From a virus, in the IMG/VR virus record IMGVR_UViG_3300030060_006292, positions 1 to 22,775 of that record: a stretch of DNA of 22,775 nt; one strand, written 5' to 3'. The notes beneath the pieces were generated by a model. It did no database searches and was not told the DNA's origin. It saw only the letters and a program-made list of their open reading frames with translations. The position numbers and the translations under genes are program-made. Positions 3,446 through 22,626 of this stretch are shown piece by piece. How positions within the stretch are numbered: position 1 is the first letter of the stretch; each line of letters opens with the position of its first letter.

Positions 3446-3473
3446 ATTATATCATGGTATTACCTTGATGCAA
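3446..3473 (-). promoter_or_regulatory. Leftward sigma70-like promoter with operator (one mismatch)
   Basis: On the minus strand TTGCAT (3473-3468) and a perfect TATAAT (3451-3446) lie 16 bp apart. The spacer 3453-3467 is CAAGGTAATACCATG in sense orientation, the palindrome with one changed base. It drives the 103-aa gene. Confidence 0.72.
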
Positions 3474-16513: not shown

Positions 16514-16533
16514 CGCAATTCAAGGAGCAATAT

Positions 16534-17169
16534 ATGAAATTTGTTATACTAGACACAGAAACGACCGGCCTGCGCTCGTATCATCATGAGATCGTAAGTT
16601 TTGCAGGTATCAAGGTAAATGCACAACTCCAAGAGATTGACAGGTTGGTGATAAAAATTAGACCGAAATACCCAGAAAGAGCAGACAAAGAAGCCATGAA
16701 AATCAACGGCTACTCTCCGGCACGGTGGGCGGGTGCGATGGATCCAGAGATTGCAGGCCCGAAGATAGCCGAATTTATGGCCGGATGTACGCCGGTCGCT
16801 CACAATTGGGCGTTTGATCGTGGTTTTATCTTGGCGCTCTTCAAGAGCATAAAAAGGCCGGATCTCCGTATCATGCGGCGCGGCATCGATACAATTGCGC
16901 TCTCTATTGCTGCTTTTGCACCGTATGGCGTTAAAAGCTATTCTCTTGATGCAATCGGCCAGCTTTTCGGATGGCCGAGACAGCTACACCGTGCCGAGGC
17001 GGATGCGGTGATGTGTCTCGCATTGTTTCGGACGATATACCCGACAAGCATAAAAACATCGATCAAGATACATGTATTGATGCTGTACGCCAAAGCGCGC
17101 GGCCTGATCAATCCTTTGGGTAGTGCGTTCGGCTTGATGGCCTCGTGGAGTCTGATATGTCAAATTTGA
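16534..17169 (+). CDS. DnaQ-like 3'-5' exonuclease (DEDDh family)
   Basis: All five signature residues are present: Asp7 and Glu9 in FVILDTETTG (ExoI), Asp95 in AHNWAFDRGF (ExoII), and His152 with Asp157 in HRAEADAVMC (ExoIII, DEDDh type). Such enzymes are metal-dependent 3'-5' DNA or RNA exonucleases, either proofreading subunits or free nucleases. This one has only the exonuclease domain plus about 40 residues, without a polymerase. AAGGAG lies upstream of ATG 16534, directly after a strong terminator, and no convincing promoter is visible in the short gap, so transcription likely reads through. Placement between lysis and fibre genes, away from replication genes, is odd. Family assignment is firm; substrate is unknown. 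Confidence 0.88.
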   Translation: MKFVILDTETTGLRSYHHEIVSFAGIKVNAQLQEIDRLVIKIRPKYPERADKEAMKINGYSPARWAGAMDPEIAGPKIAEFMAGCTPVAHNWAFDRGFILALFKSIKRPDLRIMRRGIDTIALSIAAFAPYGVKSYSLDAIGQLFGWPRQLHRAEADAVMCLALFRTIYPTSIKTSIKIHVLMLYAKARGLINPLGSAFGLMASWSLICQI

Positions 17170-17555
17170 ATCTTGCAGTTATGGCGAGCACCAACACCGC
17201 CACCGGTATCGGCACGGGCTACGATACAGCGAAAGCGGTCTCTTTAGAGCAGGATCTTTTTGCACGTAGTCAGATCAGCGTGCTTGCATCAATGCTTGAG
17301 GTGCAGTTTACAAATATATCAGGTGCAACCAAGATCAATTGCTGTCTGTCAAGAGATCCCGCCGGCGATGATTTTGTTTTAACGGACACACAAACCACCA
17401 TACAAACCGGCCTCACAACCGATTCAAAGGGGGCCGCATTGATTCGGCTTGATGTTGTTATTAAGGATTTGAACGACAACATTCTTTACTTGCATGTCAA
17501 GACTAATGCAGGTACATTAGATATAAATTCAGCCGGTCTAACGTTTAGGTATTGA
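17157..17555 (+). CDS. Small beta-rich structural protein (132 aa), fibre-associated
   Basis: The frame opens at GTG 17145, but ATG 17157 has GGAG (17147-17150) at 6-nt spacing and is the better start; it overlaps the exonuclease end by 13 nt. The product (SNLNLAVMASTNTATGIGTG...) has alternating polar and hydrophobic strands and Gly/Thr-rich turns (TDTQTTIQTGLTTDSKGAALIRL, AGTLDINSAGLTFRY), typical of small phage fibre or tip proteins. No named family is recognised. Adjacent genes encode another small beta protein and the tail fibre, so a receptor-binding or fibre accessory role is likely. Confidence 0.6.
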   Translation: MSNLNLAVMASTNTATGIGTGYDTAKAVSLEQDLFARSQISVLASMLEVQFTNISGATKINCCLSRDPAGDDFVLTDTQTTIQTGLTTDSKGAALIRLDVVIKDLNDNILYLHVKTNAGTLDINSAGLTFRY

Positions 17556-17562
17556 TCAAATT

Positions 17563-17850
17563 ATGGCTATTGCAAACGCATTTAATAGAGATGGTGGTAC
17601 CGGATCAGAATCAAGCGGATCCGGATTTGAGATTATACTCGAGGATCTGACGGCATCCGTCAACGGAGAGCGAACGCAATTTACTTGCTCGCAAAACTAT
17701 GACGCCAATAGTCTGATCGTTTACATCAACGGACTACGACAGCGACAAAATACGGTCGGTCAGGTTGGATTAAATCAATTTACACTCAGCCCCGCACCGG
17801 TATCCGGTGACATTCTTGAGGTTGAATACACGATCCAAACACAAAACTAA
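17563..17850 (+). CDS. Small tail-fibre-like module with NGL turn (95 aa)
   Basis: The protein has a Gly/Ser-rich N-terminal linker, then a compact beta domain: LTASVNGERTQFTCSQNYDANSLIVYINGLRQRQ...LNQFTLSPAPVSGDILEVEYTIQ. The order of strands with LxVYxNGLxQ and APxSGDxxxVxY is a recurrent module in phage tail fibres. The related VYVNGL sequence also occurs near the C-terminus of the fibre at 17864-19387. Only a weak AGG lies before ATG 17563, so translation is probably coupled to the upstream gene. Likely a fibre or tip subunit. Confidence 0.6.
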   Translation: MAIANAFNRDGGTGSESSGSGFEIILEDLTASVNGERTQFTCSQNYDANSLIVYINGLRQRQNTVGQVGLNQFTLSPAPVSGDILEVEYTIQTQN

Positions 17851-17863
17851 CGGAGGCCATAAC

Positions 17864-19387
17864 ATGGCAATTCAAATCAGAGGCGGTCAAATTAAATCCG
17901 CTACAATCACCGGCACGCAGCTTGCAACCGGATCCATAGACAACAGCAACCTATTCGCTTCAGCGGTCGTCAATGCGGCGGCTCTCGCGGCCGATTCGGT
18001 CGTATCGGCGAAAATCGCAGACGGGGCCATTGATAGCACCGCATACCTTGCAAATTCAGTCGTTACAGCGGCAAAGATCAACCTCACCGGATCGTTTGAT
18101 TTTTCAAGCGGTACCTTGAGAGCGAGCACACCGAGCGCAAACACAGACGTAGCCAATAAGGCATATGTCGACTCTATCCAGAGCGGAATTCATTGGAAAG
18201 AGAGCGTTATCTGTGCATCTACCGCAAATGTTGACCTCTCAAGCGCACCGGCCGCGATCGATGGTGTAACACTCTCTACAGATGATCGAGTATTGATTAA
18301 GTCTCAGACCACCGCAAGCGCTAACGGTATCTATGTTTTTGCTGGATCTGGATCTGCGATGTCACGCGCTACAGATGCCGACAGTGCGGCCGAATTGAAT
18401 GGTGCCGCTGTCTTTGTTCAACAAGGATCTACAAATTCGGATATGGGTTATATCCAGACCGCAGATATCACAAATCTTGGATCTGATACAATCACATTTA
18501 CCCAGTTTACCGGACTCGGACAGATTACGGCTGGTGACGGTCTCCAAAAAACTGCTAATACAATCTCGGTTGATCTTAGTGCGAACAGTGGTCTTCAGAT
18601 CTCCTCTGGAGAGCTTGAATTAAACGCGGGTCAAGGTGTTGAGCTTTCCGGTGGCGCTCTCAAAGCAAAGCTTGATGGATCAACGCTGGCTCTCTCTGCA
18701 TCTGGTCTTAAAGTTGGAACGATCACATCGTCCGAGATCGGTGCCAATGCGGTAACCGGTAGCGCCATCGCAGACGGCGCCGTTGGTGATTCTGCTATGT
18801 TAGCTGACTCGGTTGTTTCTTCGGCTAAAATTGCTTCAAATGCAATTACCGAGGCCAAAGTAGCGACAGGCGCGATCAGCCTTAATAAATTGGCTGCAAA
18901 CTCCGTTGACGCTAGTAAAATCGCAACAAGCGTTGCCGGTTCTGGTTTGAGCGGTGGCGGTGGATCTGCTCTTGCTGTTGATGTTGATGATAGTTCTATC
19001 GAGGTCGGTGGATCTGGTCTCAATATTAAAGCGAATGGTATCGCGGCGGCTATGTTGCAGAGTGCTTCCGTAGAGTCGGCCAAAGTGGCAGCAAACGCGA
19101 TCACAGTCGACAAAATCGGCGCTCGTTTTTATCAAGAGGGTTTTCAGGTCAGCGGATCAAGCACTTCCACTCTTGATCTTTCTCGCGCTGTGAATAGCGG
19201 ATTCTTTGCCGGTGTTCAAGTTTATGTTAACGGTCTGGCGATGCTCAATAACACCGCAACCGGCGACACACCAAGCAACAATTCTGATTTTGCTATCGCG
19301 AACAATGGAGCGGGATCAGTGGGGCGCGTTACATTCGGCGCGAATCTCGTAAATGGTGACGCTGTCGTCTGTGCTTATTTTACCTAG
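17864..19387 (+). CDS. Tail fibre protein with beta-repeat regions
   Basis: ATG 17864 is chosen over the earlier in-frame start at 17807 because CGGAGG lies 8 nt upstream and the earlier one overlaps the previous gene. The product (507 aa) has short repeats around ADSVVSAKIADGAI and ANAVTGSAIADGAV in two blocks (about residues 20-75 and 285-365), suggesting a triple-stranded beta fibre. Between them is a common fibre module: ANKAYVDSIQSGIHWKES, IDGVTLSTDDRVLIKSQTTAS, NGIYVFAGSGSAMSRATDAD, ending FTQFTGLGQITAGDGLQKTANTISV. The C-terminus contains VQVYVNGLAM and a final beta segment. It probably binds the host surface. A strong terminator follows. Confidence 0.82.
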   Translation: MAIQIRGGQIKSATITGTQLATGSIDNSNLFASAVVNAAALAADSVVSAKIADGAIDSTAYLANSVVTAAKINLTGSFDFSSGTLRASTPSANTDVANKAYVDSIQSGIHWKESVICASTANVDLSSAPAAIDGVTLSTDDRVLIKSQTTASANGIYVFAGSGSAMSRATDADSAAELNGAAVFVQQGSTNSDMGYIQTADITNLGSDTITFTQFTGLGQITAGDGLQKTANTISVDLSANSGLQISSGELELNAGQGVELSGGALKAKLDGSTLALSASGLKVGTITSSEIGANAVTGSAIADGAVGDSAMLADSVVSSAKIASNAITEAKVATGAISLNKLAANSVDASKIATSVAGSGLSGGGGSALAVDVDDSSIEVGGSGLNIKANGIAAAMLQSASVESAKVAANAITVDKIGARFYQEGFQVSGSSTSTLDLSRAVNSGFFAGVQVYVNGLAMLNNTATGDTPSNNSDFAIANNGAGSVGRVTFGANLVNGDAVVCAYFT

Positions 19388-19423
19388 TATCTGACATAAA
19401 AAACTTGCTCCTTGAGTTTTTGG

Positions 19424-19451: not shown

Positions 19452-19471
19452 ATGTTTTCTAAAGAAACTTG

Positions 19472-19500
19472 TTGACAAGGTAATACCTTGAAAGTATAAC
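19472..19500 (+). promoter_or_regulatory. Rightward sigma70-like promoter with perfect palindromic operator
   Basis: TTGACA (19472-19477) and TATAAC (19495-19500) lie 17 bp apart. The perfect 15-bp palindrome CAAGGTAATACCTTG fills 19476-19490, overlapping the -35 end and spacer. It drives the 105-aa gene and the replication initiator. Confidence 0.85.
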
Positions 19501-19531
19501 TAAAGAGAACAACAACAAAGGAGCATAAACA

Positions 19532-19852: not shown

Positions 19853-20920
19853 ATGAGCAGCAATACAAAACCATTCACACAAATAAACCTCGAAGATCTT
19901 GCCGGCCTTCGAGGTTTGGGCGCATCTTCCATCCTGGTCTATATGGCTCTTCGCATTTATGGCGGAAAAGACAGCCGTGCATGGCCATCACAAGAGCGAA
20001 TCAGTAAAGATCTAAACATGCCAATTGGATCGGTTCGAAGAGCAATGGCACAGCTCAGAAAACAAGAGGCTATCATCAAGACCGATGCAAAAACAAAAAG
20101 CCCGACATATCAGATCCGAGATCTGAGTATCGCAGATATGCGATGTCAGAAAAAACCGGAGGATCTCAATTGTGAGATCCCAGTATCGCAGATACGAGAT
20201 GTCAATATCGCAGATACGAGATCTGAGGATCTCAGATCCGATCCCCTAATATATAAAGAATATATAAAAGAAAATATACATTTAATAAATAAAACGCATA
20301 GCACACCAAAACAGATCGATAGTACAGATAACAAAAAGAGGGAGTCTAGCGACTCGCTTGAGATGGACGAACTTGATCTCTTATTTGTAGAGCTTTGGAA
20401 TAAGCACAGTGTTACGCATGGTATGACAGCCAAGAGCGGCAACCCGATCCAAGACTGGAAACGGGTCAAGGAAAGAGTTGGAATTCATCAAGCAGAAAGA
20501 GGTCTTAAAACGCTTGATTTAAAAATGAGCGCATCCGGTCGGGCTTGGCAATCCTTCGCCGGTGGTCGCTGGGTTCTCAAATTAGAAGCATGGATCAAGA
20601 GAGAGGATGAGAAGCCGATCGATCGCCGTGATTCCAAATATTTATCCGGCTCGATAGAGGTTGACCGGCGCGATCTCAATAAACACCGGCAAGAGGCAAG
20701 AGAGGCCAAAGAGGCAAATGAAAGAGCGCAGGCTATCGCGCTAGAGTCGGACACCGCTTCGCGCGGGTTGTGGCGTGAGTTTCGGCTTAATAATCAAGAG
20801 TGGTCCGATCTTGTTGATGCGGTGCAAAAATGGAAGCAAACCTTTCTTACCGAAGAGCTGCGAAAGGAGATTGAGAACGATCCACACCTCGAAGATTTTG
20901 CAATGATAATAAATATTTGA
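19853..20920 (+). CDS. Winged-helix replication initiation protein candidate
   Basis: The 355-residue protein has an N-terminal winged-helix domain (residues about 18-95: SILVYMALRIYGG, WPSQERISKDLNMPIGSVRRAMAQLRKQEAI), as in phage replication initiators such as lambda O-type and DnaD-type organisers. Residues about 90-125 contain the protein repeat QIRDLSIADMR / QIRDVNIADTR, encoded by the DNA repeats of the putative origin. A low-complexity linker, a helical domain (LLFVELWNKHSVTHGMTAKS..WKRVKERVG; GRAWQSFAGGRWVLKLEAWIKRE), and a charged C-terminal helix follow; the WVLKLEAWI-type part resembles the C-terminal regions of helicase-loading phage proteins. GGGGC-containing ribosome site precedes ATG 19853. 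The initiator role is inferred from the fold plus embedded iterons. A transcription regulator is the alternative. Confidence 0.68.
   Translation: MSSNTKPFTQINLEDLAGLRGLGASSILVYMALRIYGGKDSRAWPSQERISKDLNMPIGSVRRAMAQLRKQEAIIKTDAKTKSPTYQIRDLSIADMRCQKKPEDLNCEIPVSQIRDVNIADTRSEDLRSDPLIYKEYIKENIHLINKTHSTPKQIDSTDNKKRESSDSLEMDELDLLFVELWNKHSVTHGMTAKSGNPIQDWKRVKERVGIHQAERGLKTLDLKMSASGRAWQSFAGGRWVLKLEAWIKREDEKPIDRRDSKYLSGSIEVDRRDLNKHRQEAREAKEANERAQAIALESDTASRGLWREFRLNNQEWSDLVDAVQKWKQTFLTEELRKEIENDPHLEDFAMIINI
20106..20296 (+). other. Putative origin of replication: iterons, palindromes and AT-rich tract inside the initiator gene
   Basis: TATCGCAGATACGAGAT occurs twice perfectly (20184-20200, 20206-20222) with variants at 20128 (TATCGCAGATATGCGAT) and 20108 (TATCAGATCCGAGAT). 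Two dyads lie among them: GGATCTCA/TGAGATCC (20161-20180) and GATCTGAG/CTCAGATC (20220-20238). Eight GATC sites fall within 20113-20243. An almost pure A/T stretch follows at 20246-20294, a candidate DNA unwinding element. The layout is that of lambda ori inside the O gene. Confidence 0.65.
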
Positions 20921-21004: not shown

Positions 21005-21280
21005 ATGACACCAACAAACGCACTCACAGAAAGACAGTATCAAGGCGGCAACATCTTCACTCTTCTACAAACTGGATATGAAAATCAAATCTGGGCTACT
21101 TATCGCCAATGGAAGCAGCTCGGTAAGCAAGTACAAAAAGGTCAAAAGGGTGTGAGGCTTATCAAGATCGTTACAGTAGAGAATCTTAAAGCCGGCGAAA
21201 AAGTTACAAAGCAAGTGCCTCGAGGCTTTACGGTTTTTAATGTGGCGCAAGTCAAAGACATTGAAGAGAAAGCAGCATAG
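21005..21280 (+). CDS. Stand-alone ArdC N-terminal domain (DUF1738-like), putative antirestriction protein
   Basis: The start is ATG 21005, with AAAGGAG in the CAACAAAGGAG leader; the frame extends upstream only through the promoter. The 91-residue product matches the N-terminal domain of ArdC antirestriction proteins: YQGGNIFTLL, WATYRQWKQLGKQVQKGQKG, then GFTVFNVAQVKDIE at the C-terminus, corresponding to the family's fNvlLL, WlTfkQaxxlGgxVrkGekg and fNVfNveQ blocks. In ArdC proteins this part binds single-stranded DNA and a C-terminal metallopeptidase domain follows; here that domain is absent and the protein ends after the N-terminal block. Protection of incoming phage DNA is a possible role. 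A hairpin follows. Confidence 0.75.
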   Translation: MTPTNALTERQYQGGNIFTLLQTGYENQIWATYRQWKQLGKQVQKGQKGVRLIKIVTVENLKAGEKVTKQVPRGFTVFNVAQVKDIEEKAA

Positions 21281-22147: not shown

Positions 22148-22372
22148 ATGCAGACTGTATCTATTACAATCAGAACCAAAAACGGCCACTACATGCGCGA
22201 CATTCGAGAGGTGTCCGGCACCGGTGAGCTTATCTATGTAATCAATGCGCATCTCTCAAACGGTGCGGAGGTTATCGCGGTCGAAGAGCTGGACGGTGAA
22301 GTGCTAGACTTTTACAGCAAGACTTTGACCGATGATGACCTTGACGCAATGGTCGCCGAGGTTGCATCATGA
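22148..22372 (+). CDS. Small hypothetical protein (74 aa)
   Basis: The start is fixed by AAAGGA in the CAACAACAACAACAAAGGA leader below the promoter at 22085-22113. The product (MQTVSITIRTKNGHYMRDIREVSGTGELIYVINAHLSNGAEVIAVEELDGEVLDF...) is acidic and beta-rich at its start with a helical acidic C-terminus (TDDDLDAMVAEV). No family is recognised; small acidic phage proteins of this sort are often protein inhibitors, but this is speculation. It overlaps the next gene by ATGA. Confidence 0.68.
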   Translation: MQTVSITIRTKNGHYMRDIREVSGTGELIYVINAHLSNGAEVIAVEELDGEVLDFYSKTLTDDDLDAMVAEVAS

Positions 22373-22626
22373 AGATCGAGCTTGATGCGATATACAAGCG
22401 GCTTAAAACACCGCACACGCACAAAGGACAAGGCGACACCTTGATCGATGCGCGTTGTACCGTACACAAAGATTTTATCACCTTTGTTGGCAAGTCTGGC
22501 GGCTATCACTGCACAATCTACGCCGGCGCATTTACCGGTGCAAAATGTGAGTGTACCGGCTACCAAATCAAAAAGAGATGCAAGCACCTTTTAGCGCTTG
22601 CGATGTGGGCAAAGGGCGAACGGTGA
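22369..22626 (+). CDS. SWIM-type zinc-finger protein (85 aa)
   Basis: The C-terminal half contains AKCECTGYQIKKRCKHLLALAMW, a SWIM pattern CxC...CxH (Cys60, Cys62, Cys71, His73), which binds one zinc ion and mediates protein or DNA contacts. The N-terminal part (residues 1-55) has a short helix, a basic loop, and strands with two more cysteines (30, 48). Stand-alone SWIM proteins of this size are uncommon; most SWIM domains lie in helicases or transposase-like proteins. The ATG overlaps the preceding stop (ATGA), and its TGA overlaps a GTG start of the next frame (22623), indicating a coupled set. Confidence 0.7.
   Translation: MKIELDAIYKRLKTPHTHKGQGDTLIDARCTVHKDFITFVGKSGGYHCTIYAGAFTGAKCECTGYQIKKRCKHLLALAMWAKGER

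Follow-up and report, generated by a model that had tools for sequence, protein, structure and literature searches.

The origin of bacteriophage lambda consists of four iterons of 18-19 bp and about 40 bp of AT-rich DNA (PMC3349717, PMC5043065, PMC4488673), and its iterons are bound by the O protein through the amino-terminal half (PMC4488673). Lambda-like phages such as P27 have six-iteron origins, in which the two outer iterons are weakly bound yet matter for efficient replication (PMC7466680). In iteron plasmids, initiator monomers mostly bind direct repeats that are devoid of dyads (PMC5043065). In Vibrio chromosome II, every RctB iteron contains a GATC site, and binding requires methylation (PMC2865523).

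The locus described here shares traits with all these systems. As in lambda, the putative origin lies within the initiator gene, 3' of the part coding for the DNA-binding domain, which is the same position as in gene O, and it is made of dyad iterons in a direct array followed by an AT-rich stretch. Unlike lambda, it has six units with a 12-bp gap, arranged with a regular 22-bp period as compared to an irregular one of 20-24 bp; the iteron word is unrelated, no P gene was recognised and the initiator is weakly similar to O-like PHROG families. The number of six iterons is that of P27, which however has an O-type iteron sequence and an O-type initiator. With the iteron plasmids P1, F and RK2 and with Vibrio chromosome II, the locus has in common regular helix-phased repeats beside an AT-rich region (PMC5043065), whereas the fact that all units are dyads, and that the array is inside a coding sequence, sets it apart from the iteron plasmids. 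Judging from these comparisons, the layout is a known one, shared with lambda, and the iteron word is the phage's own and unrelated.

The window, i.e. the whole stretch of 22,775 nucleotides that was analysed, comes from a virus record of 30,017 bases (IMG/VR record IMGVR_UViG_3300030060_006292). Bases 1-99 of the record agree with bases 29919-30017 in 98/99 positions, which corresponds to a terminal repeat with one mismatch, so that the record probably represents an entire genome of about 29.9 kb, either circular or terminally redundant. Rfam gave no match. The features of the locus are collected in Table 1. We consider, with high confidence, that 20106-20295 is a cis-acting replication origin embedded in the initiator gene, which would work through dimer binding, melting and helicase recruitment.

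Table 1. Features of the initiator gene and of the putative origin (window coordinates, unless amino acids are indicated).
Feature	Position	Strand	Sequence	Basis
Probable promoter upstream of the initiator gene	19471..19505	+	TTGACA ... TATAAC, word GTAATACCTTGA in spacer	by reading the sequence
Replication initiator gene, 355 aa	19853..20920	+		Pfam HTH_36, PHROG families
Initiator N-terminal winged helix	about aa 20-86
Initiator linker, whose encoding DNA is the putative origin	about aa 85-150
Initiator helical C-terminal module	about aa 172-355
Iteron U1	20106..20127	+	CATATCAGATCCGAGATCTGAG	sequence repeat/dyad analysis
Iteron U2	20128..20149	+	TATCGCAGATATGCGATGTCAG	sequence repeat/dyad analysis
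12-bp spacer	20150..20161	+	AAAAAACCGGAG; closest relative has GAAAAACCGGAG
Iteron U3	20162..20183	+	GATCTCAATTGTGAGATCCCAG, arms GATCTCA/TGAGATC
Iteron U4	20184..20205	+	TATCGCAGATACGAGATGTCAA
Iteron U5	20206..20227	+	TATCGCAGATACGAGATCTGAG
Iteron U6, degenerate	20228..20249	+	GATCTCAGATCCGATCCCCTAA
AT tract, probable DNA unwinding element	20249..20295	+		44/47 A or T (94%)

On the basis of its family matches, the product of the gene at 19853-20920 is a DNA-binding replication initiator with a winged helix. It matches Pfam HTH_36 (E=1e-7); the best PHROG match is PHROG_270, replication initiation protein (E=1.2e-7), and PHROG_186, DnaD-like helicase loader, is also matched (2.2e-5). The role that we attribute to the C-terminal module is suggested by family matches that are weak. 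Membership of the lambdoid O family by descent was considered and rejected, the matches to O-like PHROG families being weak (from 8.5e-5 for PHROG_678 to 0.0017) and no P-type loader being recognised next door; no helicase-loader gene was recognised among the neighbours of the initiator. Relatives of the initiator were found neither in phage and plasmid collections, at the thresholds used, nor in the genome contigs searched, and the phage matches obtained at E up to 10 showed weak HTH similarity only. No solved structure matched the initiator profile. The structure predicted from two sequences was poor (pLDDT 46), and a fold search gave no significant match.

Just after the DNA-binding domain, six 22-bp iterons are found at 20106-20249, arranged as two units, a 12-bp spacer and four units. 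The direct repeats that the initial annotation had placed inside the winged-helix gene are confirmed, in that the lag-22 self-identity over 44 bp is 35/44 at the array, as compared to 24/44 for the next best position in the 30 kb record. The word TATCGCAGATA occurs at 20128, 20184 and 20206 and is absent elsewhere in the window even allowing one mismatch; an exact TATCGCAGATACGAGAT is present twice (20184 and 20206), and the copy at 20128 differs from it by two mismatches. Two dyads had been noticed in this region, and both are present. That description was incomplete, since all six iterons are imperfect dyads in one register, with 5-7/9 pairs as compared to 2.2 expected and a consensus of about KATCKCAGATNYGMGATC. 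In 100,000 random draws of six, the six-unit dyad score was never equalled. The almost pure AT tract that had been noticed beside the repeats is also there: it adjoins the array directly and contains three near-repeats (AATATATAAAG/AATATATAAAAG/AAAATATACAT). Equally AT-rich stretches occur elsewhere in the genome.

The same architecture is found in two homologues. The initiator of L002 is 51% identical to that of the window, and the L002 array matches position for position (two units, the 12-bp spacer, four units and the AT tract), with 34 bp of the AT tract identical. Its lag-22 repeat is the strongest in its genome (37/44 vs. 23 for the next one). When a weight matrix was built from the window units, all six L002 units scored above background, and with a matrix built from the L002 units five of the six window units did; U6 was not above background in the cross-genome scan. 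The weight-matrix scan of the window phage and L002 genomes revealed no other iteron cluster. In L017, whose initiator is 35% identical to that of the window, comparison by eye and by dyad score only showed an AT tract and four units spaced 22, 23 and 22 bp. The dyads have 6/9 pairs and the same register, and they are kept, like the AT tract, in spite of a divergent linker peptide. A pattern match in another viral contig (L006) was rejected as a single chance match outside any array.

For the wider phage group, a search with the terminase gave 26 loci, and arrays were surveyed in those with an HTH_36 gene. In-gene arrays with other words are present just after the wHTH in L044, L046 and L048, with a period of 24, and in L045, L047 and L049, with a period of 23. 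In L050 to L052, where the HTH_36 match is weak, a convincing array was not found. The four initiators tested (those of L017, L046, L047 and L048) matched the same replication families. Two pairs behave as natural chimeras: the initiators of the window phage and L002 have N-termini 85% identical, C-termini 31% identical and the same iterons, whereas those of L046 and L048 have N-termini 40% identical, C-termini 83% identical and different iterons. From these swap patterns we conclude that the iteron word goes with the N-terminal domain and not with the C-terminal one, as expected if the iterons are recognised by the wHTH, and this suggests that the N-terminal domain is swapped together with its iterons, as a single cassette. 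The proposal of an origin within the initiator gene, with a lambda-like arrangement and an unrelated sequence, had already been made in the initial annotation; the architecture of L002 and L017 and the DNA-level constraint described below argue for it, and further support comes from the analogous arrays in unrelated initiators of the wider group and from the linkage of the iterons to the N-terminal domain. Replication very probably starts at 20106-20295.

Repressor operators, too, typically have dyad sites. We considered that the array may be an operator, or another site for the initiator, which controls the expression of its own gene or another process, while replication starts elsewhere; bound to the array within its gene, the initiator could be an obstacle to the transcription of that gene. 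We regard this explanation as unlikely. The array is located about 250 bp inside the gene, far from the promoter region, and is adjoined by a conserved AT tract, which an operator would not need. Moreover, because neither the genome of the window phage nor that of L002 has another iteron cluster, no other candidate origin of iteron type was found. GC skew, which had been proposed as a check of the origin, was analysed as well: it is monotonic in both the window phage and L002, with no turn at 20106-20295, but with nearly all genes on the same strand this carries no information.

The initial annotation had also pointed out eight GATC sites in about 130 bp, suggesting that methylation could control firing. 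The count was correct: the eight sites start at 20113-20240 (131 bp), and no other 140-bp stretch of the record contains more than 6. The origin reading might be refined by supposing that Dam-type GATC methylation gates the origin, on the model of E. coli oriC or of Vibrio chromosome II. If this were true, the phage's own adenine methylase or the host Dam would set the state, and the origin would fire only in one methylation state. Besides the density of sites, the RctB precedent (PMC2865523) speaks for such gating, as does the fact that the phage encodes an N6/N4 DNA methylase, whose similarity to CcrM-type adenine methylases is distant and far below family cut-offs. However, GATC is common throughout the record (308 in 30 kb, 1.15 times the second-order Markov expectation), and its density at the array is partly a by-product of the repeated word. 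In the three homologues the counts at the origin are 8, 5 and 3, with few sites keeping their position; the iterons U2 and U4 contain none, other stretches of L002 are denser in GATC than its origin, and lambda iterons have 0 GATC. The sites are not both dense and conserved in the binding sites, as they would be in a methylation-gated origin; gating is thus not supported, and we attach little probability to it.

The repeats had moreover been read as protein repeats (QIRDLSIADMR/QIRDVNIADTR). If they were mere protein repeats in a flexible linker, the DNA repetition would simply follow the encoded peptide. The stretch is in frame, QIRD and IAD recur, and the 24-bp period of L044, L046 and L048 is in frame and gives 8-aa repeats. 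On the other hand, the period of 22 bp is not a multiple of three, and for this reason one DNA word, read in all three frames, gives different peptides. U1/U4, U2/U5 and U3/U6 have the same reading frame, which is where the apparent protein repeats come from. When the stretch was recoded in 20,000 trials, keeping the same protein and using the phage's own synonymous codons, the lag-22 repetition observed (45/66) was reached in 0/20,000 (26.1 ± 3.5 in the recodings), and the AT count of 44/47 in 1/20,000 (mean 36.0). The iterons of lambda O, used as a positive control, gave a mean pairwise identity of 0.80 as compared to 0.46 in the synonymous null (0/5,000). Synonymous codons are also kept more in the origin than elsewhere in the gene: of the residues identical between the window and L002, 36/40 have the same codon within the origin, as compared to 70/128 over the remainder of the gene (p=2.7e-5). 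This codon conservation of 0.90 is the top value among genuine window/L002 gene pairs, the next being 0.82, a margin that is real but not huge. Two higher values were discounted: the ORFs behind them are out-of-frame or antisense, so that a residue in common imposes a common codon. The repeats are elements of the DNA, on which selection acts in addition to that for coding, and what look like protein repeats result from the shared frames; that the encoded peptide alone accounts for the array is very improbable.

Short direct-repeat arrays are also typical of centromere-like sites, but that this one is a partition (centromere-like), packaging or recombination site is scarcely credible, considering that none of the proteins tested was recognised as ParA/ParB-like, that the terminase genes are about 2.6-6 kb from the array, and that the word of the array goes along with the wHTH domain of the initiator.

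For the replication origin embedded in the initiator gene, we infer the following course of events by analogy with known systems. Using the N-terminal winged helix, initiator dimers would bind the dyad-symmetric 22-bp iterons, which are spaced by about two turns of the DNA helix, and once bound they would bend the DNA, as in lambda (PMC5043065, PMC7466680). The nucleoprotein complex would then melt the adjoining AT tract, to which the C-terminal module would recruit the replicative helicase of the host in the way that lambda O does with P. Such an origin would give a precise, testable site for an uncultured phage group with almost no database relatives, in which the lambda solution, i.e. an origin within the initiator gene, would recur with several different iteron words. 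With the origin inside the initiator gene, protein and target would be inherited together, and the group may be useful for decoding site recognition by wHTH initiators.

Other features were observed around the locus. Upstream of the initiator gene, the sequence at 19471-19505, which a consensus promoter scan did not pick up, is a probable promoter, the transcription from which would cross the origin. A cassette with DnaQ-like exonuclease and tail-fibre-like genes (window 16534-19387, + strand) is inverted in L002 (5041-7886). In the window it is flanked by a 14-nt inverted repeat (AATTCAAGGAGCAA / TTGCTCCTTGAGTT, at 16517-16530 and 19405-19418), which may mark the boundary of the inversion; no invertase for the cassette was recognised. 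The phage also encodes an ArdC-N-like anti-restriction protein (window 21005-21280), a small SWIM zinc finger protein (window 22369-22626, Pfam E=5.4e-5) that is kept in L002 (10350-10607), and a C5-cytosine methylase in addition to the N6/N4 methylase (L003 7605-8468 and 8613-9902, about 26.6-28.9 kb of the record). Finally, the word GTAWTACCTTGA is present at window positions 3458, 19481, 20950 and 22097 and at record positions 26161 and 29423. In most cases the word has TTGAC on one side and a TATA-like hexamer on the other, upstream of early genes, and it resembles an operator common to a group of coordinated promoters.
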